Positions 9,362 to 21,820 of a stretch of 64,000 bases of DNA are shown piece after piece. The stretch is from Mariprofundus sp. Its GTDB lineage: Bacteria; Pseudomonadota; Zetaproteobacteria; Mariprofundales; Mariprofundaceae. A program made the position numbers and the translations under genes. The notes below the pieces were generated by a model. It did not search any database. It saw nothing but the letters and a program-made list of their open reading frames with translations, and was not told the origin of the DNA. How positions within the stretch are numbered: position 1 is the first letter of the stretch; each line of letters opens with the position of its first letter. The stretch spans positions 1-64,000 of the forward strand of contig JAJFLE010000036.1 of NCBI GenBank assembly GCA_021772835.1, in the 5' to 3' direction.

Positions 9362-10645
9362 TTAAACAATCATGCCTGCTCCAACGGTGTTGTTGGTAAA
9401 GGTATCGATCATGATAAAACTACCCGTCGTACGATTCTCTGCATATGTATCGTAATGCAGTGGTTTCATCAGCTTCAGCGTGATCTGACCGATCTCGTTC
9501 ATAGCCAGCTCTGTTGCACCCTCAAGGTGATCCAGCGTGTGAATATCTGTCTTGAAATCAATGCTTGCAACCATTGCCTTTACGCTATTGGTTGTGTGTT
9601 TGATGACGTATTTGCTACGACATGTCAGCGGCTCATCACCAATCCAGCAGATATTGGCAGTCAGCTCTTTTGAATCCATCGCCTTGTCACCAACATGCGT
9701 GAGCATATCGCCGCGCGAGACATCAATCTCATCGTTGAGCGTAATGGTGATGCTCTGAGGCGCGAATGCCTCATCAAGGTTGCCATCAAAAGTAACAATC
9801 TCTTTGACAGTAGATGTATTGCCGCTTGGCACTGACACGATTGCATCACCAACCTTGACAGTACCTGAGGCAATCGTACCCATGAAACCACGGTAATCCG
9901 GAAGGTCGGCAGTTTGAGGACGATTCACCAACTGCACCGGCATACGGAACGGTTTGCTATCGATGTCACCGAGTGCGGATAACGTTTCCAGCGTTTCCAG
10001 CAGCGTCGGACCTTCATACCAATCCATCTTGTCGCCACGGATAGCCACCATATCACCATCCAGTGCGGACATCGGCAAACAAATCAGATCATTGATACCC
10101 TGCCTGGCGCAATACTCCTGCATATCGGTACGAATCTGTTCAAATACAGCCTGATCGTTACCGACCAGATCCATCTTGTTCACAGCCACAATCAGGTGAG
10201 GAATGTTCAGCAGACCAAGAATGTGGGTGTGGCGTTTGGTCTGTGGCATCACACCATTTCGCGCATCGATCAGGATAATCGCAGCATGGGCTGTAGATGC
10301 ACCGGTCACCATATTACGGGTGTACTGCTCATGGCCCGGACAATCAGCCATGATAAACTTACGTTTGGGCGTAGCGAAATAGCGGTAAGCCACATCAATG
10401 GTGATGCCCTGCTCGCGCTCGGCAGATAGACCATCCGTGAGCATGGCAAGATCGATCTCGGCTGCTGAGGCGATATGTGTGGTGCCCTTTTTCTTACGCA
10501 CAGCCAACAACTGATCTTCAAAGGCTCCCTTGGTATCCACCAACAAACGACCTATCAACGTTGATTTACCATCGTCCACACTACCCACAGTCACCAGGCG
10601 CAACAGTTCGACTTCCTTAGCCATTTTAATATTCAATTTAGTCAT
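9362..10645 (-). CDS. cysN: Sulfate adenylyltransferase subunit 1 (GTPase subunit)
   Basis: Regulatory GTPase subunit of ATP sulfurylase, which with CysD makes adenosine 5'-phosphosulfate (APS) from sulfate and ATP. The EF-Tu-like G motifs are GSVDDGKST, DCPGHEQYTRN and NKMD, followed by two beta-barrel domains (FRMPVQLVNRP onward). At 427 residues it ends without the APS-kinase domain of CysNC fusions, and no separate cysC is present, consistent with direct APS reduction by CysH. The start ATG at 10645 has GGAG upstream; MAKEVELLR, 7 codons later, is an alternative. It is the last gene of the sulfur operon. Confidence 0.95.
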   Translation of the reverse strand: MTKLNIKMAKEVELLRLVTVGSVDDGKSTLIGRLLVDTKGAFEDQLLAVRKKKGTTHIASAAEIDLAMLTDGLSAEREQGITIDVAYRYFATPKRKFIMADCPGHEQYTRNMVTGASTAHAAIILIDARNGVMPQTKRHTHILGLLNIPHLIVAVNKMDLVGNDQAVFEQIRTDMQEYCARQGINDLICLPMSALDGDMVAIRGDKMDWYEGPTLLETLETLSALGDIDSKPFRMPVQLVNRPQTADLPDYRGFMGTIASGTVKVGDAIVSVPSGNTSTVKEIVTFDGNLDEAFAPQSITITLNDEIDVSRGDMLTHVGDKAMDSKELTANICWIGDEPLTCRSKYVIKHTTNSVKAMVASIDFKTDIHTLDHLEGATELAMNEIGQITLKLMKPLHYDTYAENRTTGSFIMIDTFTNNTVGAGMIV

Positions 10646-10817: not shown

Positions 10818-11741
10818 CTAGAAATAACCTTCTTTCTTTTTATCTTCCATGCTGTTCGAACCATGATCGATAATACGTGTCTCACGTTCCGAACGACGAG
10901 CTGCCGCTGCTTCAATGACAATCTCATCCATATTGGTTGCATCCGAATGCACGGCTCCCGTGCAAGGGCTGCAGCCCAGTGTGCGAAAACGGCTCATTAC
11001 CATCTTTGGCTCTTCGCCTTCGAGTAGCTGATCTTTCATCTCTTCATAATAAGGAATCAGGAAATTTTTGCGTTCCACCATCAAACGTTCTTTGGCGAAA
11101 TAGAGCGGCACAATCGGGATGTTTTCCTCACGGATATACAACCATACGTCCATCTCGGTCCAGTTGGAGATCGGAAACACGCGCACTGATTCACCATCAT
11201 GAATCTTACCGTTGTACAGGCTCCACAATTCTGGACGCTGATTTTTCGGATCCCACTGACCAAATTCATCACGCATGGAAAACACACGCTCTTTGGCGCG
11301 TGAGCGTTCTTCATCACGGCGCGCACCACCAAAGGCTGCATCATATTCGCCCTCTTCCAGTGCATCCAGCAGACCTTTGGTTTTCAACGCGCCACAGCAG
11401 CGAGCCACTCCGTGATCTTTCGGATTCATGCCCTTGGCAATGGCTTCTTCGTTCCTGCGCACGATCAGATCTGCACCTACTTCTTTGCAGTAGCTGTCGC
11501 GGAATTCGTACATCTCTTTGAACTTGTAACCGGTATCAACGTGCAGCAGCGAAAAAGGCAGGGGTGCCGGATAAAAAGCCTTACGCGCCAGATGTAACAT
11601 CACACTGGAGTCCTTACCCACAGAATAGAGCATCACCGGATTGCGAAACTCCGCCACTACTTCACGCATGATATGAATCGATTCTGCTTCCAGCGCTTTC
11701 AGCTGTGTCAGTTTATGTTCAGATAGTGTACTTTCAGACAT
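10818..11741 (-). CDS. cysD: Sulfate adenylyltransferase subunit 2
   Basis: Catalytic subunit of ATP sulfurylase, an ATP-pyrophosphatase-fold enzyme that adenylylates sulfate to APS with CysN. Markers are the PP-loop [18 protein letters not shown], the segment [19 protein letters not shown], and the tail [19 protein letters not shown]. The ORF track starts at 11774, inside cysH; I chose the ATG at 11741 ([20 protein letters not shown]), giving 307 residues, close to the usual ~302. It lies 10 bp behind cysH and is followed by hairpin array B, then cysN. Confidence 0.95.
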
Positions 11742-11751
11742 CGTTTTACTC

Positions 11752-12474
11752 CTAAATCCCTTCGCCATTTTCAATTTTCCCAGTAACCTGCTTGATGCTC
11801 ATCACATGCAGGCCGCATTCTGCCGCCACATCATCATTTTCCCACCACCAGCGACCTGCACGTTCATCTTCACCCACGGTGATTGCCCGTGTACAACATT
11901 CACAACCTATGGAGTGATAATGGGCATCATGCAGGATATTGTAGGGAACGTCATAAGTTCGGATGTATTCTAAGACTTCATCCATGCTCCAGTTAAGCAG
12001 AGGATTGTATTTCTTCAGGTTGTACACCGGATCAGTTTCTACTTCCTGCAGACCAGCTCGCCCCTTTGACTGCTCATGACGGCGACCGGTCAGCCAGGCT
12101 GATTTCCCCTGCAGCGCCCGCATCAAGGGGTGCACCTTACGAATCTCACAGCAGTGTTTACGCAGAGCAACAGACTTCCTGAACAGGTTCACCCCATGTT
12201 CACGAACCATCGCTTCCACTTCATGGCTATCCGGGAAAGTCACCGCTACCCGGATGCCATAGCGTTTTTCAAATGCTGCAATCACATCGTAGGTTGCCTG
12301 CGGCAAACGCCCTGTATCCAGCGTCATAACAGGAATATTCAGTCCATGTCGGCAGATCAGATCAACCATCACAGAGCCTTCAATGCCCATGGAACACGGG
12401 TAGACCAGTCTATCGCCATGCTCTTGCAAGGCCTGCTTCAACAGTGCTAGCGCCTGATTGATTTTAGCTTCCAT
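11752..12474 (-). CDS. cysH: Assimilatory adenylylsulfate (APS) reductase, CysH family
   Basis: Reduces APS to sulfite and AMP with thioredoxin. Besides the PP-loop region ([12 protein letters not shown]), it has the cysteine pairs of the [4Fe-4S] APS-reductase type, HCCEIRK and GCECCTR, and the catalytic cysteine in ECGLH near the end. PAPS reductases lack the two pairs, so the substrate is probably APS; absence of cysC agrees. The ATG at 12474 (240 residues) is preferred over the TTG at 12486 because GGAGAATAGA lies directly before it. That ribosome site overlaps the stop codon of the radical SAM-transporter fusion, so translation is coupled. Confidence 0.92.
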
Positions 12475-12475
12475 T

Positions 12476-15112
12476 CTATTCTCCAAAACCGGCCAGAACC
12501 GGCCACCACAAAGAGACTGTGATCATAAACAGGGTAAATGCTGACAGTGATATTAGCGCGCCATATCGCAGCATATGTGAGGCGCGCACAAAACCGGTGC
12601 CAAAGATCATCGCATTCGGCGGTGTTCCCATGGGCAGCATAAATGCAAAACCGGAAACAATGCCCACGGCCAGCGCCACGGTAATCGGATCAATCTGGGC
12701 GACGGCAGCAACCGAAATCGCTACCGGCAAAACAATCGCCACGGCAGCTGCGTTACTCACGCCTTCGGTAAACAACAACGTAATCAAAGCAAGCACAGCC
12801 AACATAGCCAAGCCCGCAATGCTCTCCGGAAAAACCAGGTGTGCCAGCCAGGCACCCGCTCCGGTTACCGTCAGGGCTTTGCCGATGGCAATAGCACCGC
12901 CGTACATAAGCACGACTCCCCAGTTCACATGCTGCTCAACCGCACGCCAGCTCACCAGACGCATGGCAAACATCACGACTACACTGATCAGTGCGATAGC
13001 CGCCAGCGAACTTGAGTGCCCCGCTGAAATCCAGGCCAGCATCGTTACAATAAGCAGCACAGCCATAGCTTTTGACTTCAGGTCAAAATCACCGAGTTCC
13101 AGTCGGCGCAGTGAAATGCGTTGACGGGCCGATGAAATATCGATGCCGGCCATCGGGGTAATACGAAGCAGAATCACAGCTGAAATAAATAGTACCGGCA
13201 GTGCAATGGGCGCTGCAGCCAGTGTCCAGTCAGCAAACGAGAAGGTCTGCCCCGTCAGCTCTTCCGTCAGTGCCAATGCCAGCGGTCCGCGAGCACCACC
13301 AAGCAATGTAATCACACCACCGATGATTGCACCCCAGGCGAGCGCAAAAAAGATTGACTGTGCATAACGATTGCCAGCTTTAAGGCCCAGGCTGCGCACA
13401 ATTTCCCATGCGATCGGTAAAAACAGTGCCGCCACAGCATGTTCAGGCATAAAGCAGGCCATGACTGCAGGCAGTAAAAGCATCGTCAGAAGCAGTCGTT
13501 TCGGGCTCGTTCCAAATCGGTTTATGGTCAACAAAGCCATGCGCTCAGACAGTCCGCTCTGCATCGCTCCAGCAGCTAACATGAATGCTCCCAGAATAAA
13601 GAACACAGCCGGATTACCAAACAGGGCAAACACATTGCTTGCCGGCAATACGCCTAGCAATGGCAACAGTGCCAGCCCCAATAGCGAGGTCACCGCCAGC
13701 GGCAACAGTTGCGTCACCCACAACACAAGACAGAGCGCAAAGACAATCAGCGAACCCCACCCGTTCTGATTGAGCCCTTGCGGTGCATCCATGGAACCGG
13801 CAGCAAAGGCCAGCAATGAAATCACAATAAGGGCCGCAAACGGTAAGGCTTCACCAGCAAGCAGCACGTGCATGGGCCTGCGATCCAGCTGCGTCCCATA
13901 CTCTTCACCATTGCCTGAACGAAGATGTCTGCGCAGAGCATCCATCCAACCATCGAGACGGCGACCCAGTGATGAAGAAACCCAACGCTCGGAAAGCATA
14001 GGTTCCCTGCCATCGAGAACGCGGCTTTCCATCGGCGTCAATACACGCCCCATATGACGCAAGCGATGCGTCGGGAAACCGGCTTCGCTGATCGCGCCAT
14101 AGAGATGAAGAAACAGCTCCTCCATCATTTCCAGTGAAGGCCCGGTTTGATGCTCCAGAGGTGTTCCCGGTAGCGGTCTGAAAGGTTGCAACAAAGGCAC
14201 GACACCATGAGCTATCAGGGCATCAATGCCCTTTTTTGTTGATTTCACATCATCGAGGCCGACAATCAGATGACTGACCACAGCGCCAGATCGGAATACC
14301 TGACGGGCATGATCCAGCGCTTTCCATATTGCTGCCTGGCCACCCACAGATTCTTTGCCGGGGCACACTTCTGCGAATCTATCCGCATCATGCACTTCCA
14401 GATTGCAGACAAAGATATCCAGACCTGCTGCATACAGCGCATCAATGACAGAGACATCTTTAGGCGCAACCGTTTCCAGAGCAATCTGACGGTGCCCCAG
14501 ATGCCGCCTGAGCAGAGCAATCACCGGCACCAGCCTGGATAGCCCTACATCATCACCCGGCGCAAAGCCGTTGTAGAGATAAACGGTATCGATCTCCCGC
14601 TCATCGAGTGCAGCACGTACCACCTCAACCAGCTCTAACGGATCACGCAGTGGTGGCGCCTCTTCATTAAGCATGGAGTCATACTGACAGTACTGGCATG
14701 CCGCCCCTTGCCTGGCAAAAAAGCCGCAACCCATAAGTGGGTGCAGCATAAGCAGGTTTTCATGCAGAGAGGCAAAGCTACCCATGCGGGCACCGGAGCG
14801 TGTTTTATTGCGATAGAAACGCGGAGCAGGCAATACCTGCACATCAAGCCTTTCATCACCCCATTGCAGCTCGGCACTGCCACTGGCGTCTTGCTGCGTG
14901 AGCTGAATCGTACTTTTCTGACTATACGGCTGAGCCACTGGCACCGTAGCAAAATGGCCCGACGGTAACCTGATATCGATCACCAATTCCGTTGCATTGG
15001 CTTGCGCTACCCAGTGTGAGGCATTCTGCAAGCCATCGGGCAAGGCTACGCCCTGACTCACCAGCGCCAGCTTGCAGCGGCCCGGATTGGCAAACGGATT
15101 CAGATTTTTCAT
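12476..15112 (-). CDS. Fusion of a radical SAM domain with an SLC13/DASS-type anion transporter
   Basis: One uninterrupted 878-codon frame joins two unrelated parts. Residues ~100-375 form a radical SAM-like domain: HPLMGCGFFARQGAACQYCQ contains C129, C139 and C142 (CX9CX2C), followed by barrel-like elements DTVYLYNGFAPGDD, ALETVAPKD and HLIVGLDD. From ~415 to the end is a polytopic membrane region of ~460 residues with many hydrophobic segments and the DASS-type motif LPMGTPPNAMIFGTG near the C-terminus, which in relatives carries sulfate or dicarboxylates with sodium. It sits between sulfite reductase and cysH, so sulfate or another sulfur oxyanion is a plausible substrate. The radical SAM reaction is unknown. 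An internal start giving a separate transporter is possible, but none is clearly marked. Confidence 0.82.
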   Translation of the reverse strand: MKNLNPFANPGRCKLALVSQGVALPDGLQNASHWVAQANATELVIDIRLPSGHFATVPVAQPYSQKSTIQLTQQDASGSAELQWGDERLDVQVLPAPRFYRNKTRSGARMGSFASLHENLLMLHPLMGCGFFARQGAACQYCQYDSMLNEEAPPLRDPLELVEVVRAALDEREIDTVYLYNGFAPGDDVGLSRLVPVIALLRRHLGHRQIALETVAPKDVSVIDALYAAGLDIFVCNLEVHDADRFAEVCPGKESVGGQAAIWKALDHARQVFRSGAVVSHLIVGLDDVKSTKKGIDALIAHGVVPLLQPFRPLPGTPLEHQTGPSLEMMEELFLHLYGAISEAGFPTHRLRHMGRVLTPMESRVLDGREPMLSERWVSSSLGRRLDGWMDALRRHLRSGNGEEYGTQLDRRPMHVLLAGEALPFAALIVISLLAFAAGSMDAPQGLNQNGWGSLIVFALCLVLWVTQLLPLAVTSLLGLALLPLLGVLPASNVFALFGNPAVFFILGAFMLAAGAMQSGLSERMALLTINRFGTSPKRLLLTMLLLPAVMACFMPEHAVAALFLPIAWEIVRSLGLKAGNRYAQSIFFALAWGAIIGGVITLLGGARGPLALALTEELTGQTFSFADWTLAAAPIALPVLFISAVILLRITPMAGIDISSARQRISLRRLELGDFDLKSKAMAVLLIVTMLAWISAGHSSSLAAIALISVVVMFAMRLVSWRAVEQHVNWGVVLMYGGAIAIGKALTVTGAGAWLAHLVFPESIAGLAMLAVLALITLLFTEGVSNAAAVAIVLPVAISVAAVAQIDPITVALAVGIVSGFAFMLPMGTPPNAMIFGTGFVRASHMLRYGALISLSAFTLFMITVSLWWPVLAGFGE

Positions 15113-15132: not shown

Positions 15133-17472
15133 TTAGATATTCCCGGTCTTTTCAACCCGGATTTTCCATTGGCTTTCGGAGATACGCTCTTTCTTCGACA
15201 CCTTCTGCCCCTGCTCTTCCAGTGACAATGGTACATTATCAATCGGTGCGCCATCATCGAGAATAACGTCCAGTAATGATCCCGCTGGCATGGTCGTCAG
15301 CTTGATCTTGGTCTTCACAAAGTTCATCGGGCAAGCCACACCTGAGAGATCAAGCAGTACCACATCCTCAGTCACTTCAGCGATTGCTTTACCGGCTTCC
15401 GATTCAGCTACTTCCGGAACTGCAGCAAAGCGTTTCTCAGCCAGAGCTACCCACTCACCCTGCACATCCTTGAGTTTGGTTACACCCGCTGCCGGATCTG
15501 CCAGATCGATGTTCATGAGAGCCATCTGCACGGTCTGGAATCCGGATATGATTTCACTGTCTGCAGCCGCATGAACAGCCAGCAGACCGAAGACTGTGGC
15601 ATCATCTTCAGGTGATTCACCAAAGGGCACCAGAAATGCGCGTGCAGTCGAAATAGCGGAACGGCGCAAAGCTGTTGCCGCTTCTGCCCAGAACATGGCA
15701 TCGGCATGCGCACGGGCTATCAACAGATCATATTCTGCTTCTGAAATCAGCGCATCGGACATGGAAAGAACCGCGCCTGCACATTCACCCTTTTTGTTAC
15801 CCTTGGTATTGAATGCTTCGTTTTCACTCCAGTCATAGATCAGACCTTCAACCTCACCGGCATCAGCCGCAAACGGTGCCAGGATTTCTGAGACACCCTC
15901 TTTGCCAATACGCGAGACCCAGGCATGCACAGACTCATCATCAATGCGCCCTGCCTTATAGGCGTTTAGCACAGTAATGCCCGCTTCAGGAGCGTATTTG
16001 GCAGGTACCGGATCGGTAGCAAAGGCCAGAGGAGCACCGGCCACGCCTGAGCCACCGAGATGCAGCTGGTAGTGCGGCACAGCCTGACCGGCCACTTTCT
16101 TGGCCATACCGTGAAAACCGAGATCAGCAATATGATGACGGGCACAGGAGTGCTGGCAACCGGATGCTTTGACTGTGATACCGGCCAGCGTGCCATCCTT
16201 TTTCAGGTCAGCCATAAGCGGCTGCAGGGCAGCGGCCAGCCCACGACTGGACGTGATTCCAAGGCGACACGTTTCAGTACCCGGGCAAGCCACAACATCA
16301 GCAATACCACGTGCGTATTCGCTGGTCAGGCCCGCATCATTCAGAATGGCCTGTGCAGCCTCAACTTTTGAGCTTTCAACATCAGCGATAACCATGCCCT
16401 GCTCAGCGGTTACACGCAGATCATCCGTACCTGCTGCACGCGCAGCATTGGCTACGGCCCGGCACTGCTTCGGAGTCAAATCACCACGGAACAGATTGAG
16501 CAGAATTGCAGATTTACCATTGTGCTGATCGACTACACCGGAATCAGAGAATGGCATTGCCGCAGTTGGCGTACGCCAGTTTGCTTCTGCGAAACCCGCA
16601 TCATCGGCATGTGTCGTTTCGATCACTGCACGCTGTTTTTTGTACTCTGCGACAAAACCTTCAGCACCGAGTTTCTGTGCCACATATTTCATACGAGCAC
16701 GAGCACGGCGCTTGCGATCAGAGAATTTGAAGTGAATGCGCATCAGGGCTTCGCCGACAACAAGCATCTCATGCTCTTCGATAAACTCTTCCAGCAACAA
16801 AGCGCCCATAGGCTGTGACGACAATCCGCCCGCAGCCCAGACCTGGAAGCCAGGTATGCCGTCGTTGTGGGTAGCGATAAAGCCAATATCGTGCATACCT
16901 GAAAGGCCGCAGTCGGTGGCGCAACCGGAGAAGCTCACCTTGAATTTACGCGGAAACTGCTGAGCCAGAGGATGGCGCAGGAAAAATTCAGCGAACTTGC
17001 GTGCATGAACGGTGACATCAGCATGTTCGGCAGGACAGCGTCCTGCCAAAAAACAGGTCGTCACATTACGAACCGTATTACCACAGGCTTCACGCGTGGT
17101 TATACCCGCCCCATCAAGCTTGCGCAGGAATGCAGGCACATCTTCCAGCGCCACGAAATTGGCCTGAATATCCTGACGAGTAGTCACATGTGCTACTTTT
17201 TCAGGTGGCTCGGTCACGGTACCGTCAGTTGGCAGGCGACCGGCATACAGCTCAACACACTCGGCAATCACATCCATCTGATCCGGTGTCATGCAACCAC
17301 CGGGCAGCTTGGCACGCACCATCTGCACGCCTTCCTGACGCTGACCATAAACACCCATCTGCAGACGGAACGGCGTAAACCGCTCTTCCGGCATACGACC
17401 ATCCACAAATGCCTGGTATCCAGCCTCAAACTCATCCACATCGGATGTGTGTGCAAAATTAAATTCTGTCAT
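15133..17472 (-). CDS. Sulfite/nitrite reductase haemoprotein with C-terminal TusA domain
   Basis: A 779-residue sirohaem/[4Fe-4S] reductase of the sulfite/nitrite reductase family, placed in a sulfate-assimilation operon and so most likely reducing sulfite to sulfide. The first half has TREACGNTVRNVTTC and FSGCATDCG; the second half has the sirohaem/cluster motif CPGTETC plus SGCQHSCARH (CX5C and CX3C). Residues ~560-690 are a mostly helical linker of unknown role. The last ~80 residues are a TusA-type sulfur-carrier domain with LSGVACPMNFVKTKIKL, whose cysteine could take the reduced sulfur as persulfide. ATG at 17472 is preceded by GAGGTAAT. A palindromic repeat separates it from the moeB-like gene. 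Confidence 0.87.
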   Translation of the reverse strand: MTEFNFAHTSDVDEFEAGYQAFVDGRMPEERFTPFRLQMGVYGQRQEGVQMVRAKLPGGCMTPDQMDVIAECVELYAGRLPTDGTVTEPPEKVAHVTTRQDIQANFVALEDVPAFLRKLDGAGITTREACGNTVRNVTTCFLAGRCPAEHADVTVHARKFAEFFLRHPLAQQFPRKFKVSFSGCATDCGLSGMHDIGFIATHNDGIPGFQVWAAGGLSSQPMGALLLEEFIEEHEMLVVGEALMRIHFKFSDRKRRARARMKYVAQKLGAEGFVAEYKKQRAVIETTHADDAGFAEANWRTPTAAMPFSDSGVVDQHNGKSAILLNLFRGDLTPKQCRAVANAARAAGTDDLRVTAEQGMVIADVESSKVEAAQAILNDAGLTSEYARGIADVVACPGTETCRLGITSSRGLAAALQPLMADLKKDGTLAGITVKASGCQHSCARHHIADLGFHGMAKKVAGQAVPHYQLHLGGSGVAGAPLAFATDPVPAKYAPEAGITVLNAYKAGRIDDESVHAWVSRIGKEGVSEILAPFAADAGEVEGLIYDWSENEAFNTKGNKKGECAGAVLSMSDALISEAEYDLLIARAHADAMFWAEAATALRRSAISTARAFLVPFGESPEDDATVFGLLAVHAAADSEIISGFQTVQMALMNIDLADPAAGVTKLKDVQGEWVALAEKRFAAVPEVAESEAGKAIAEVTEDVVLLDLSGVACPMNFVKTKIKLTTMPAGSLLDVILDDGAPIDNVPLSLEEQGQKVSKKERISESQWKIRVEKTGNI

Positions 17473-17573: not shown

Positions 17574-18395
17574 TTACTCGCCGAACTTCAACTCACAGGC
17601 CTGTTCATAGGTAGCCAGCTCAGTGATGGTTGGGTTATCACCGCACAAAGGACAACCCGGATCCTTGCGCAGCTTGAGCTTCTTCCACTCCATACGCAGT
17701 GCGTCGAAAACCATCAGCTTACCGGCCAATGAATCGCCAATACCGAGCAGCTCTTTGACCGCTTCAACAGCCTGGATGGTACCCACAGCTCCGGCCAAGG
17801 CACCGAGAATGCCCGCTTCCGAGCATGACGGGACCAGGCCTGCCGGTGGCGGTTCCGGGTACAGACAGCGGTAGCAAGGCGCATCCTTCTGCTGATGCGG
17901 TTTGAATGTTGCGACCTGCCCTTCAAAGCGGAACATGGCACCAGAGATCAGAGGCTTCTTCTCGAAATAACAAGCATCATTCACCAGAAAGCGCGTTGGA
18001 AAATTATCACAACCATCAATGATAAGATCATATTCGCTGATAATGTCGCGAATATTGTCTTCAGTGACGAAATAGTTGTAGGTGTTGACCTTCACGTCCG
18101 GATTCAGGGCTTGCATGGTTTCACGCGCGCTCTCCACCTTGGGCATGCCAATACGGTCCTGATTATGGATGATCTGACGTTGCAGGTTGGACAAGTCCAC
18201 CACGTCTGCATCAGCAATACCGATAGTGCCTACGCCTGCTGCAGCCAGATAATAGGCCACAGGCGAGCCCAGGCCACCGGCACCGATCATGAACACTTTG
18301 GATTCAAGCAACTTGCTCTGACCTTCAGCACCGACTTCCGGCAAAATAATATGACGCGAATAGCGTTCAATCTGTTCTTCTGTAAAATCAATCAT
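17574..18395 (-). CDS. MoeB/ThiF/HesA-family sulfur-carrier-protein adenylyltransferase
   Basis: E1-like enzyme that adenylates the C-terminal glycine of a ubiquitin-like sulfur carrier. Visible are the nucleotide-binding GAGGLGSPVAYYLAAAGVG, DLSNLQRQ, DGCDNFPTRFL, the zinc pairs CYRC and CPLC, and the cysteine segment SCSEAGILG. At 273 residues it lacks the C-terminal rhodanese domain of MoeZ/MOCS3. Its likely partner is the MoaD/ThiS-like protein encoded four genes earlier in the same run; context points to cysteine or methionine synthesis rather than molybdopterin, as no moa genes are near. The hairpin array C and a half-palindrome lie upstream. It might also serve ThiS or MoaD. Confidence 0.87.
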   Translation of the reverse strand: MIDFTEEQIERYSRHIILPEVGAEGQSKLLESKVFMIGAGGLGSPVAYYLAAAGVGTIGIADADVVDLSNLQRQIIHNQDRIGMPKVESARETMQALNPDVKVNTYNYFVTEDNIRDIISEYDLIIDGCDNFPTRFLVNDACYFEKKPLISGAMFRFEGQVATFKPHQQKDAPCYRCLYPEPPPAGLVPSCSEAGILGALAGAVGTIQAVEAVKELLGIGDSLAGKLMVFDALRMEWKKLKLRKDPGCPLCGDNPTITELATYEQACELKFGE

Positions 18396-18648: not shown

Positions 18649-19581
18649 TCAGACTTCGATGCCTTTGAACAGGTCCGTAGACATATAACGCTCTGCCATG
18701 GAAGGCAGAATCACTACGATACGTTTACCTTTCATATCAGGACGTGCTGCCACGCGCAGGGCAGCTGCAACTGCTGCACCGGATGAGATGCCGCCAGGAA
18801 TACCCTCTTCATCAGAAAGACGGCGCGCCATGCTAAAAGCTTCATCATTGCTTACTTTTTCAACACCATCGAGAATATCAACATTCAGGTTTTTCGGGAT
18901 AAATCCTGCACCGATGCCCTGAATTTTGTGCGGTCCGGGCGCTTCACCTGAAATGACCGGCGAATCGGCAGGCTCTACAGCAAATGCCTTAAATTCAGAG
19001 TTGCGGCTTTTCAGTACTTCGGCGATACCGGTGATGGTGCCACCGGTGCCAACACCTGCGACGATTGCATCAACCTGACCATCAGTATCTGCCCAGATCT
19101 CTTCGGCCGTGGTTCTGCGGTGCACTTCCGGGTTTGCTGGGTTTTCAAACTGCTGCGGCATAAATGCGCCTTCAGTTGAAGCCGCAATCTCTTCAGCTCT
19201 TGCAATAGCACCCTTCATACCTTTTTCGGCAGGGGTAAGCACCAGCTCCGCACCAAGCAGCTTGAGCAATTTACGACGCTCCAGACTCATCGATTCAGGC
19301 ATAGTCAGAATACAGCGATATCCCTTGGCGCGTGCAACAAATGCCAGTGCGATGCCGGTATTGCCTGAAGTCGGCTCAACAATAACGCCACCCTCTTTCA
19401 GACTTCCATCAGCTTCAGCAGCCTCAATCATGGCGCGTCCGATGCGATCCTTGACCGAATTCAGAGGATTGTAGAACTCGCATTTGACGACGATCTCGGC
19501 ATCGATATCCGCGCCTATGCGATTCAAACGAATCAGCGGTGTGTTTCCTATGGTTTCAGCTGCATTGTTGTAAATTGGCAT
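18649..19581 (-). CDS. cysK: Cysteine synthase (O-acetylserine sulfhydrylase family)
   Basis: PLP enzyme that replaces the activated hydroxyl of O-acetylserine with sulfide, or with a protein thiocarboxylate in CysM-like relatives, to give cysteine. Markers are IGNTPLIRL, the PLP lysine in [11 protein letters not shown], the substrate loop [12 protein letters not shown], the phosphate-binding [10 protein letters not shown], and GGISSGAA. The track starts at 19611, but those extra codons translate a palindromic repeat; the ATG at 19581 ([15 protein letters not shown]) has GGGAAGG upstream and gives 310 residues. It follows the NIL-domain gene in the sulfur cluster. Whether it uses free sulfide or the carrier thiocarboxylate cannot be read from motifs alone. 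Confidence 0.93.
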
Positions 19582-19596
19582 AATACCTTCCCTTTT

Positions 19597-19758
19597 CACC
19601 GCAGAGGACACAGAGCACGCAGAGCATTTACTATTACGCTACAATCACTGCACTCACCCGATGAATGTTTTTCTATTTCCAGTTAAAGCACACTTCCTGC
19701 CGCAAACACACGTAAAACACAGTTACTGCTGTCGTTTTCCCTCTGCGTACTCAGCGGT
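19597..19758. repeat. Imperfect palindrome of the accGCGGAG type, copy 3 with longer centre
   Basis: Left arm CACCGCAGAGGACACAGAGCACGCAGAG (from 19597) and right arm TTCCCTCTGCGTACTCAGCGGT (to 19758) are inverted repeats around about 110 bp of unique sequence. It occupies the spacer between the NIL-domain gene and cysK. Confidence 0.65.
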
Positions 19759-19768
19759 GAAGCTTGTT

Positions 19769-20008
19769 TTATCCTTCGATGATATTCTGCTCAATCGGCT
19801 CGACGTGAACACCCTGCTCACTGAGCCACTTCACAGCCGCATCAATCACTTCGCCATCGCCTTCCAGCTCAAGGCCAACAAGCCCCATGTGATCCTTCAC
19901 TTCGGCAGTACGGATATTGGTCACAAGGTCAAACTCTTTACCCAGCGTCCAGATAATCGGATCGCGAACCGTTGCCTCGTTAAAGCTCAGGTAAACACGA
20001 AACTTCAT
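19769..20008 (-). CDS. NIL-domain protein (ferredoxin-like fold)
   Basis: A 79-residue protein consisting of a lone NIL domain (RVYLSFNEATVRDPIIWTLGKEF...GLVGLELEG), the ligand-binding domain found at the C-terminus of MetN ABC subunits and fused to ferredoxins in some archaeal homocysteine-synthesis proteins. There are no cysteines, so it binds no cluster itself. The start ATG directly follows the stop of the sulfur-carrier gene (TAAATG), implying coupled expression. A role as a sensor or scaffold for methionine-related ligands in this cluster is inference. Confidence 0.75.
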   Translation of the reverse strand: MKFRVYLSFNEATVRDPIIWTLGKEFDLVTNIRTAEVKDHMGLVGLELEGDGEVIDAAVKWLSEQGVHVEPIEQNIIEG

Positions 20009-20287
20009 TTAGCAGCCGCCTGCAATCGCCGGAACGATGGAAAGCTCATCACCATCTTTCAGTGCAGTTGCACGACCTTCAAGAAAGCGAACATCCTCGT
20101 CGTTCACATACACGTTCACAAAACGGCGGATTTCACCAGCATCGTCACAGATACGTTCTTTCAGACCCGGATGTGCAGATTCAAGGCTTTCAATCACGTC
20201 ACCAACGGTTGTGCCGTCTACGGTTATTTCATCAGATCCGCCAGTCAGCTTACGCAGCGGGGTAGGAATACGTACAGTTACACTCAT
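20009..20287 (-). CDS. MoaD/ThiS-like ubiquitin-fold sulfur carrier ending in GGC
   Basis: Ubiquitin-fold protein of 92 residues (VTVRIPTPLRKLTGG...VNVYVNDEDVRFL...LKDGDELSIVPAIAGGC). Carriers of this family are activated at a C-terminal Gly-Gly and converted to a thiocarboxylate. Here one extra cysteine follows the GG, so a protease would have to remove it first, or the end reacts differently. The codons GGC GGC TGC TAA are clear in the sequence. The gene lies between the threonine-synthase-like gene and the NIL gene, with the MoeB-like activator, Sir-TusA and cysteine synthase downstream, so it probably serves cysteine or homocysteine synthesis like CysO or HcyS rather than molybdopterin. 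Confidence 0.85.
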   Translation of the reverse strand: MSVTVRIPTPLRKLTGGSDEITVDGTTVGDVIESLESAHPGLKERICDDAGEIRRFVNVYVNDEDVRFLEGRATALKDGDELSIVPAIAGGC

Positions 20288-20317: not shown

Positions 20318-21568
20318 TTATGCGTCGGCAACGCCGTCGGCTTCAGCCAATACATCAAACTCTTTCAGGCTGGCGTTGATAATACGCGGTTTGCTTATCG
20401 CATCCACTATCGCTTCCTGCGTCTTCAGACCGTTACCGGTGATGCAAAGCACGATCGACTCATCGCGAGGCAGCTTACCCGATTCGATCATCTTCATAGC
20501 ACAGCCCAGCGTTACACCACCAGCGGTCTCAGCAAAGATACCTTCAGTTTCAGCCAGTAACTTCATGGCAGCTACCACTTCCTCATCGGAAATATCCTCA
20601 GCCCAGCCGCCGGACTCCTTGATCACACGATTAGCATAATAGCCATCAGCCGGGTTACCAATAGCAAGCGACTTGGCGATGGTGTCGGCACGTACCGGGT
20701 GAATCATGTCAGTGCCGTCTTTCACAGACTTGGCAATTGGCGAGCAACCGGTCGCCTGTGCGCCATAAACAGCAGTGCTATTATCTTCGATCAGGCCAAG
20801 CTTGATGAATTCCTTGATCGCTTTGTCCACCTTGGTGCACAGCGACCCTGAAGCCATCGGCACAACCACATGCTTCGGCGCTTTCCAGCCCAGCTGTTCC
20901 ATCACTTCATATGCCAGTGACTTGGAACCTTCGGCATAAAACGGACGCACATTCACGTTCACAAATGCCCAGCCGTATTTGCCTGCCACTTCTGAACAAA
21001 GACGGTTCACATCGTCATATGCGCCTTTAATGCCAATGATATTGGTGCCGAATATGCCGGCGCCGAGCACTTTACCCTGCTCAAGATCGTGCGGAATAAA
21101 CACATAGGATTCCAGACCTGCAGCTGCCGCATTGGCCGCCACGGAACCGGCCAGATTGCCAGTTGAGGCACATGCCACAGTAGTAAATCCGAACTCAACA
21201 GCCTTGGACAAAGCGACGGAAACCACACGATCCTTGAATGACAGGGTAGGATAACAAACTGAATCGTTCTTGATGTAGAGCTCTTTAACACCGAGAACTT
21301 TTTCCAGCCGCTTTGCGCGCACCAAGGGCGTGTAGCCGTTCTGGGCACCAACAGTCGGTTCACCGTCAATTGGCAACAACTCTTTGTAACGCCACATCGT
21401 CTGTGGACGCGATTCAATCAACTCACGGGTAAACACCCCTTCCAGCTTTTCATAGTCATAAACCACTTCCAGCGGGCCAAAGCAAAACTCACACACATGC
21501 GTTGGCTCGATAGGATATTCCTGACCACATTCACGACATTTCAATGCACGGACGATACTTTCAGTCAT
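20318..21568 (-). CDS. thrC: Threonine-synthase-like PLP enzyme under SAM riboswitch control
   Basis: PLP fold-II enzyme of 416 residues closest in layout to threonine synthase, which turns O-phosphohomoserine into threonine. It begins with a zinc-ribbon-like CRECGQEYPIEPTHVCEFC, then the PLP lysine in TLSFKDRVVSV, CASTGNLAGSVAANAAAAGL, GAYDDVNRLC, and SESG-like ETAGGVTLG. ATG at 21568 has GGAG upstream. A SAM-I riboswitch directly precedes it, which is unexpected for threonine synthesis and fits methionine metabolism; it heads a run of sulfur-transfer genes. A related possibility is a homocysteine-forming enzyme using phosphohomoserine and carrier-bound sulfur. A homoserine kinase gene lies at 61121. 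Confidence 0.82.
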   Translation of the reverse strand: MTESIVRALKCRECGQEYPIEPTHVCEFCFGPLEVVYDYEKLEGVFTRELIESRPQTMWRYKELLPIDGEPTVGAQNGYTPLVRAKRLEKVLGVKELYIKNDSVCYPTLSFKDRVVSVALSKAVEFGFTTVACASTGNLAGSVAANAAAAGLESYVFIPHDLEQGKVLGAGIFGTNIIGIKGAYDDVNRLCSEVAGKYGWAFVNVNVRPFYAEGSKSLAYEVMEQLGWKAPKHVVVPMASGSLCTKVDKAIKEFIKLGLIEDNSTAVYGAQATGCSPIAKSVKDGTDMIHPVRADTIAKSLAIGNPADGYYANRVIKESGGWAEDISDEEVVAAMKLLAETEGIFAETAGGVTLGCAMKMIESGKLPRDESIVLCITGNGLKTQEAIVDAISKPRIINASLKEFDVLAEADGVADA

Positions 21569-21604
21569 TTTCTAAACTCCAGTTTGTTTGGCCAGACCCA
21601 GAAA

Positions 21605-21634
21605 TAAAAAAACCTCCGCAATGATTGCGAAGGT
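21605..21634 (-). terminator. Riboswitch expression-platform terminator
   Basis: On the minus strand AACCTTCGCAAT-CATTGCGGAGGTT is followed by seven T, between the SAM aptamer and the thrC-like start. This indicates control by transcription termination: SAM bound, terminator formed, operon off. Confidence 0.85.
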
Positions 21635-21693
21635 TGTCGGAATGAAAAAAGCACCTATATAGTGATCCATACGAACAACCCGAACATCATTGC

Positions 21694-21811
21694 TCCCTCA
21701 AGGTAAACCTCTCGGGCAGGCATTGGCACCATTCTCCGCAGATGAATCATCATCGTTGGCCGGTTGCCGCAGTATCAAAGGGCCTGTAACCCTCCACTGC
21801 TCTGAATAAAG
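21694..21811 (-). promoter_or_regulatory. SAM-I (S-box) riboswitch aptamer
   Basis: The minus-strand sequence carries the S-box core in order: CTTTATTCAGAG...GTGGAGGG, CAGGCCCTTTGATACTGCGGCAACC, GGTGCCAATGCC, and a closing TTGAGGG that can pair with CTTTA to form P1. S-box aptamers bind S-adenosylmethionine. A terminator follows at 21605-21634, and the first gene controlled is the threonine-synthase-like one; the whole cys cluster to 9306 could be read from here. Confidence 0.92.
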
Positions 21812-21820
21812 CCGGATTAA

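Follow-up and report, generated by a model that had tools for sequence, protein, structure and literature searches.

The SAM-I riboswitch found in a 64,000-nucleotide stretch of a Mariprofundus sp. genome (contig JAJFLE010000036.1, positions 1 to 64,000; hereafter, the window) very probably acts as a SAM-OFF switch and controls an operon for sulfur assimilation and homocysteine synthesis, which includes a threonine synthase (ThrC)-like enzyme of the MetM type. The anatomy of the RNA, the genes present and their conservation, the paralogy and clade of the enzyme, and the lack of other homocysteine enzymes in many relatives were observed in the sequences; we infer the binding of SAM, the co-transcription of the genes, the order of the sulfur relay, the removal of the carrier tail, and the substrate and product of the enzyme. 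The original prediction had described a SAM-I riboswitch with a clear terminator in front of a threonine-synthase-like gene and had offered two explanations, namely a role of this enzyme in the synthesis of methionine or control of the O-phosphohomoserine branch point by SAM. Three points go beyond that prediction: the paralogous status of the gene, the presence of a sulfur donor gene within the operon itself, and the earlier publication of MetM.

Architecture of the SAM-I riboswitch

A cmscan search of the 64-kb window at the gathering threshold yielded a single match to RF00162 (SAM-I), and only one copy is present in the entire 2.55-Mb genome. The match spans positions 21684-21812 on the minus strand, covers the full model (1-108), and scores 61.2 bits (E = 9e-12; gathering cut-off, 44.4 bits), confirming the predicted type of riboswitch and its position in front of the threonine-synthase-like gene. 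The match had been predicted at 21694-21811 on the minus strand; its existence and strand were borne out, but the 3' end at 21694 falls 10 nt short of the 3' strand of P1. The predicted terminator was also found: an 11-pair stem (21635-21611) followed by a T run constitutes an intrinsic terminator with a U tract (21604-21635, minus strand), and equivalent terminators were detected in 51 of 54 orthologous leaders. In the alignment of the leaders of 23 orthologues, the S-box core is conserved, the GGGTTG sequence right after P1 is invariant, and the terminator is strongly conserved. In most of the 54 leaders, a strand near the aptamer end is complementary to the 5' half of the terminator, and a few of them show compensating changes.

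In the minimum-energy fold of the leader (-67.6 kcal/mol), the segment 21693-21666 (minus strand), comprising the 3' strand of P1 and the conserved GGGUUG, pairs with 21618-21646 as the 5' strand of an antiterminator. Enforcing P1 gave the 11-pair terminator fold (-63.8 kcal/mol), and the comparison of folding with and without P1 indicates that P1 and the antiterminator are mutually exclusive. This layout is that of a classic SAM-OFF transcription attenuator, of which SAM would be the ligand. The full-model match above the gathering score and the terminator/antiterminator arrangement are shared with other members of the S-box family (RF00162), from which no fundamental difference was found, although the target gene is unusual compared with those of well-studied S-boxes. 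A promoter located between the aptamer and the ThrC-like gene would bypass the switch, but no promoter-like site was found there on the minus strand. On the minus strand, the only promoter-like match falls within the aptamer; the total number of matches is not clearly above chance.

Gene organization of the apparent operon

The first gene behind the riboswitch (20318-21568; all genes described here are on the minus strand) encodes the ThrC-like PLP enzyme (416 aa; TIGR00260/PF00291), a candidate MetM-type homocysteine synthase as judged from its class-specific active-site residues and its position in the tree. It is followed by genes for a CysO/MetO-like sulfur carrier of the MoaD/ThiS type (20009-20287; 92 aa; PF02597 and NF041918) with the C-terminus PAIAGG+C, a NIL-domain protein (19769-20008; 79 aa; PF09383, 49 bits with a cut-off of 24), and an O-acetylserine-type cysteine synthase, CysK (18649-19611, likely start codon at 19581; TIGR01139, 455.6 bits), whose nearest solved chains are CysK proteins. 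Further downstream are genes for a MoeB/ThiF-type E1-like adenylyltransferase, which is a putative activator of the carrier (17574-18395; PF00899, 282.9 bits), a siroheme nitrite/sulfite reductase-like protein with a C-terminal TusA domain (15133-17472; PF01077, PF03460, and PF01206), a protein that combines a radical SAM domain with a DASS-type anion symporter (12476-15112; NF045502 and TIGR00785), and the PAPS/APS reductase CysH (11752-12486; PF01507). These are followed by the genes for two putative subunits of sulfate adenylyltransferase: CysD (10818-11774; PF01507), named from its size and the neighbouring CysN, and the GTPase subunit CysN (9362-10645), which contains EF-Tu-type GTPase domains and was named from its place after CysD.

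The distances between adjacent genes range from an overlap to a gap of about 250 nt, and a single transcript probably extends from the ThrC-like gene to cysN. Virtually every zeta locus of sufficient length keeps one and the same gene order between the ThrC-like gene and the radical SAM-DASS gene. The radical SAM-DASS fusion is a single 878-aa frame in the window, and its two halves are separate in L150, L152, L153, and many delta loci. A second cysteine-synthase paralogue (L039), which is CysM-like, resides on another contig (G000:C77) near a glutamyl-tRNA synthetase-like gene and resembles the second CysK-like gene of the delta operons.

The ThrC-like protein and the canonical threonine synthase

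By sequence comparison, the riboswitch-linked gene is a paralogue distinct from the ordinary threonine synthase gene of the genome. A canonical thrC (353 aa) is located on another contig, its product shares 31.9% identity with the ThrC-like protein, and nearly all relatives contain a canonical copy. No linkage of the ThrC-like gene to hom or thrB was found; its neighbours are those of the sulfur operon, whereas the other thrC adjoins the homoserine dehydrogenase gene (hom). The ThrC-like protein exceeds the cut-off of TIGR00260 (threonine synthase; 264 bits with a cut-off of 167), scores below that of PRK08197 (272.6 with a cut-off of 303), and shows a weak match to TIGR03844 (cysteate synthase). 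Its AlphaFold2 model is confident (pLDDT, 89.9), and the nearest solved folds are threonine synthases.

The PLP lysine and the core residues are retained, and about 40 positions that are invariant in true ThrC carry other, equally fixed residues in the riboswitch-linked protein. The substrate-site residues of ThrC (T88, S155, N157, R160, Q164, and N191 in the Thermus enzyme) are replaced by L139, N206, R208, Y211, S215, and L243, respectively, each of which is found in at least 97% of the riboswitch-linked (ThrC2) sequences. Thr88, Ser155, and Arg160 of Thermus ThrC, corresponding to Leu139, Asn206, and Tyr211 here, are among the residues that hold the substrate phosphate, and with these replaced the acceptor might not be O-phosphohomoserine. 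The VGNAGN loop of true ThrC is changed to MASGSL, and this sequence, together with NVNxRPxYAEGSK, could serve as a diagnostic feature to separate the ThrC-like family from true ThrC.

Distribution in Mariprofundales and in delta-type genomes

The riboswitch was found in 38 of the 41 Mariprofundales genomes compared, and the assemblies of the other three contain no complete copy of the ThrC-like gene. The homocysteine enzymes searched in the 41 genomes were MetA (PF04204), MetY (PF01053, full-length), and DUF39 (PF01837). MetA and full-length MetY were identified in exactly the same 14 genomes, including that of the window, and both were absent from the other 27, 19 of which are at least 90% complete; DUF39/HcyBio was absent from all 41. 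The notion of Zetaproteobacteria as a group devoid of MetY was thus rejected, and the ThrC-like route would not be the sole one in the window's genome and the 13 relatives that also carry MetA-MetY. The metA and metY genes are adjacent in the window's genome (G000:C77:62653-65901; L002), and each Mariprofundales genome has either both of them or neither, as for an accessory module. Full-length MetH was present in all nine MetY-lacking Mariprofundales genomes tested. MetH also functions in SAH recycling, so its presence alone is no proof of de novo homocysteine synthesis. According to PMC8250860, such organisms live as chemolithoautotrophs, and a reliance on external methionine is therefore unlikely.

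A search of genome contigs identified ThrC-like proteins with 65-71% identity to that of the window in delta-type MAGs. The carrier gene is present in nearly all of these loci, and genes for NIL, JAMM, MoeB, CysK, and TusA are present in many. Full-length PF01053 was absent from 20 of the 26 delta-type genomes that contain the ThrC-like protein, and PF01837 was absent from all of these 20 as well as from the Mariprofundales genomes, by which the DUF39 route was excluded in both sets. A simple motif search had suggested that delta loci have no riboswitch. This proved wrong, as 19 of the 26 genomes had a SAM-I riboswitch heading the operon in the Rfam search, among them L154, L155, L157, and L177, in which cysK or other genes precede the ThrC-like gene. 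Five of the seven riboswitch-less genomes have MetY. One delta clade (L163, L166, L173, and L174) contains the ThrC-like and carrier genes with neither NIL nor a riboswitch, and MetY is encoded elsewhere; the ThrC-like enzyme may have another role in this clade. The absence of NIL and the presence of MetY in the deltas are nominally associated (p 0.002), with the four NIL-less loci forming one clade and maybe representing a single event.

Sulfur carrier, NIL domain, and JAMM protease

The carrier gene lies directly downstream of the ThrC-like gene, and the best solved match of its product is CysO of Mycobacterium tuberculosis (3dwg_C; E = 2.6e-26). The carrier contains the Gly-Gly motif and an additional tail. 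PAIAGG is nearly fixed in the window (20009-20020, minus strand) and its relatives, and the residues beyond Gly-Gly are freely variable (examples are K, C, R, I, S, and AF), the pattern one would predict for a tail destined for removal. The carrier of Nonomuraea has no tail and terminates exactly at Gly-Gly. No JAMM gene was found inside the zeta operon itself; the gene was present elsewhere in the genome in all 19 Mariprofundales genomes tested, and its catalytic motif was seen in relatives.

The NIL-domain protein is encoded at 52 of 53 zeta loci. At five delta-type loci (L158:11272-11784, L154:8167-8679, L155:9063-9575, L165:12656-13171, and L167:4792-5316), a NIL domain is fused to the carrier after Gly-Gly. 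In the predicted model of one of these fusions, which is least certain at the junction and the C-terminus, the two halves correspond to CysO (carrier half) and to the C2 domain of MetNI, a methionine importer (NIL half). It is conceivable, though somewhat doubtful, that NIL has a function within the pathway, that JAMM cuts the tail or the carrier-NIL fusion after Gly-Gly, and that NIL senses methionine or SAM or handles a homocysteine adduct. If so, NIL would add protein-level feedback on top of the riboswitch, and the domain would recur in two unrelated homocysteine routes, one using the ThrC-like enzyme and carrier and the other using DUF39 and NIL/ferredoxin.

Relationship to known systems

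As described in PMC12172450, which cites Hasebe et al. 2024 (AEM 90:e01247-24), the homocysteine synthase MetM of Streptomyces converts O-phosphohomoserine to homocysteine, and a SAM riboswitch lies upstream of its gene in S. albulus; given this citation of MetM, the idea of an undescribed enzyme activity was dropped. A protein search led to a locus in Nonomuraea where a SAM-I riboswitch (score, 68.7 bits) accompanies genes for a ThrC-like protein and a carrier, which share 54.7% and 56% identity, respectively, with their counterparts in the window. The window, delta, and Nonomuraea proteins share the diagnostic residues and form one clade (support, 100/100), separate both from canonical ThrC (100/99) and from the remaining zinc-ribbon threonine synthases included in the tree. 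The sulfur carrier MetO is reportedly encoded downstream of MetM. From the shared clade and residues, we take the operon of the window to be a system of the MetM/MetO type, with the Nonomuraea locus as a proxy for MetM/MetO of S. albulus. The features in common are a ThrC paralogue, an upstream SAM riboswitch, and a carrier gene immediately downstream, and Nonomuraea has the same layout. The zeta and delta versions differ from the Streptomyces system in the sulfate-assimilation operon, the tail of 1-4 residues or NIL domain after Gly-Gly, and the accompanying NIL protein.

The HcyS/HcyD/HcyF proteins of Wolinella, which together with MetY reportedly form a protein-thiocarboxylate methionine route, have in common with the present system a thiocarboxylate carrier with an extra C-terminal residue, JAMM, an E1-like enzyme, sulfite reductase, and SirA/TusA. 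The acceptor enzyme is MetY in Wolinella and would be a ThrC-fold protein here; MetY is present in the window's genome and absent from 27 of 41 relatives. The CysO/CysM/Mec system of M. tuberculosis resembles the present one in its carrier and in the presence of a JAMM protease but differs in that the partner here would be ThrC-like and the CysK of the operon is of the O-acetylserine type; the CysM-like gene is on another contig. A protein-thiocarboxylate methionine route is mentioned in PMC5764234, as is the homocysteine route using DUF39 and NIL/ferredoxin. The latter likewise involves a NIL-domain protein, whereas in the present system DUF39 is absent, NIL is not fused to ferredoxin, and the substrate is expected to be derived from homoserine.

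Proposed function and alternative explanations

When SAM is scarce, the antiterminator would form and the operon would be transcribed. Sulfate would then be taken up, activated by CysDN, and reduced to sulfide by CysH and sulfite reductase. The JAMM protease would remove the tail of 1-4 residues from the carrier and expose Gly-Gly, to which TusA and MoeB would pass sulfur, generating a thiocarboxylate at the C-terminus. The MetM-type enzyme would eliminate the phosphate of O-phosphohomoserine and add the carrier sulfur at the gamma carbon to yield homocysteine, which MetH would methylate to methionine. When SAM is plentiful, P1 would form and the terminator would halt transcription.

The MetM-type reading is drawn from the anatomy of the SAM switch, the separate canonical ThrC, the lack of MetA, MetY, and DUF39 in most relatives, and the clade formed with the actinobacterial riboswitch-ThrC-carrier locus of Nonomuraea. 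Together with the carrier, NIL, and sulfate-assimilation neighbours, these observations strongly support the first of the two original explanations, i.e. a role in methionine synthesis. The second, control of the O-phosphohomoserine branch, holds for the methionine arm if the enzyme is of the MetM type and is hence no true alternative, and control of threonine synthesis itself by the riboswitch is unlikely. The latter would apply if the protein were a normal threonine synthase, with the riboswitch shifting O-phosphohomoserine between threonine and methionine. The TIGR00260 score, the threonine synthase folds, and the retained PLP lysine and catalytic core fit such an enzyme, but it is distinctly improbable in view of the canonical copy beside hom and its counterparts in nearly all relatives, the exchange of residues fixed in true ThrC for another fixed set, and the sulfur genes in the neighbourhood. 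The logic of control would also be backwards, as a SAM-OFF switch would lower threonine synthesis when methionine is plentiful; plant threonine synthase, in contrast, is activated by SAM.

An improbable reading is also that of a homocysteine-forming sulfhydrylase that uses O-acetylhomoserine (from MetX) as the acceptor or free sulfide rather than a thiocarboxylate as the donor. The replaced phosphate residues would be consistent with such an acceptor, MetX is a possible source of it (the enzymes searched were MetA, MetY, and DUF39), and the CysK of the operon probably uses sulfide. However, MetA and MetY come and go together and are both missing where the ThrC-like enzyme stands alone; the enzyme is almost never without the carrier gene, and the two stay together even in L163, L166, L173, and L174, which lack other operon genes; O-phosphohomoserine should exist, since the canonical enzyme (ThrC1) is present; and MetM is reported in PMC12172450 to use this substrate. 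Far-fetched is a third reading, modelled on mycobacterial CysO/CysM, in which the carrier delivers sulfur for making cysteine and the ThrC-like protein, with O-phosphoserine as its substrate, is a synthase of the cysteine or cysteate type. The similarity of the carrier to CysO, the existence of a ThrC-derived cysteate synthase (the weak TIGR03844 match), and the CysM-like gene (L039) point in this direction, but the operon already contains CysK, its sensor is one for SAM rather than cysteine, and the gap observed in the relatives concerns homocysteine.

Implications

A SAM riboswitch in front of a ThrC-like homocysteine synthase gene and a carrier gene is already known from Streptomyces. The new features are a riboswitch heading an apparent sulfate-assimilation operon across an order of iron oxidisers, a carrier that would need trimming, and a NIL partner, which is also found in the unrelated DUF39 route. 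A MetM-type enzyme would account for the presence of a methionine-type riboswitch on a threonine-synthase-like gene and would give a testable answer to where homocysteine comes from in many Zetaproteobacteria and delta-type genomes that lack every homocysteine enzyme searched. Because automated annotation names this protein threonine synthase, these genomes may be classed as methionine auxotrophs or credited with an extra thrC. According to PMC5764234, one or more pathways to homocysteine had yet to be discovered, and MetM-type enzymes are candidates for filling such gaps.
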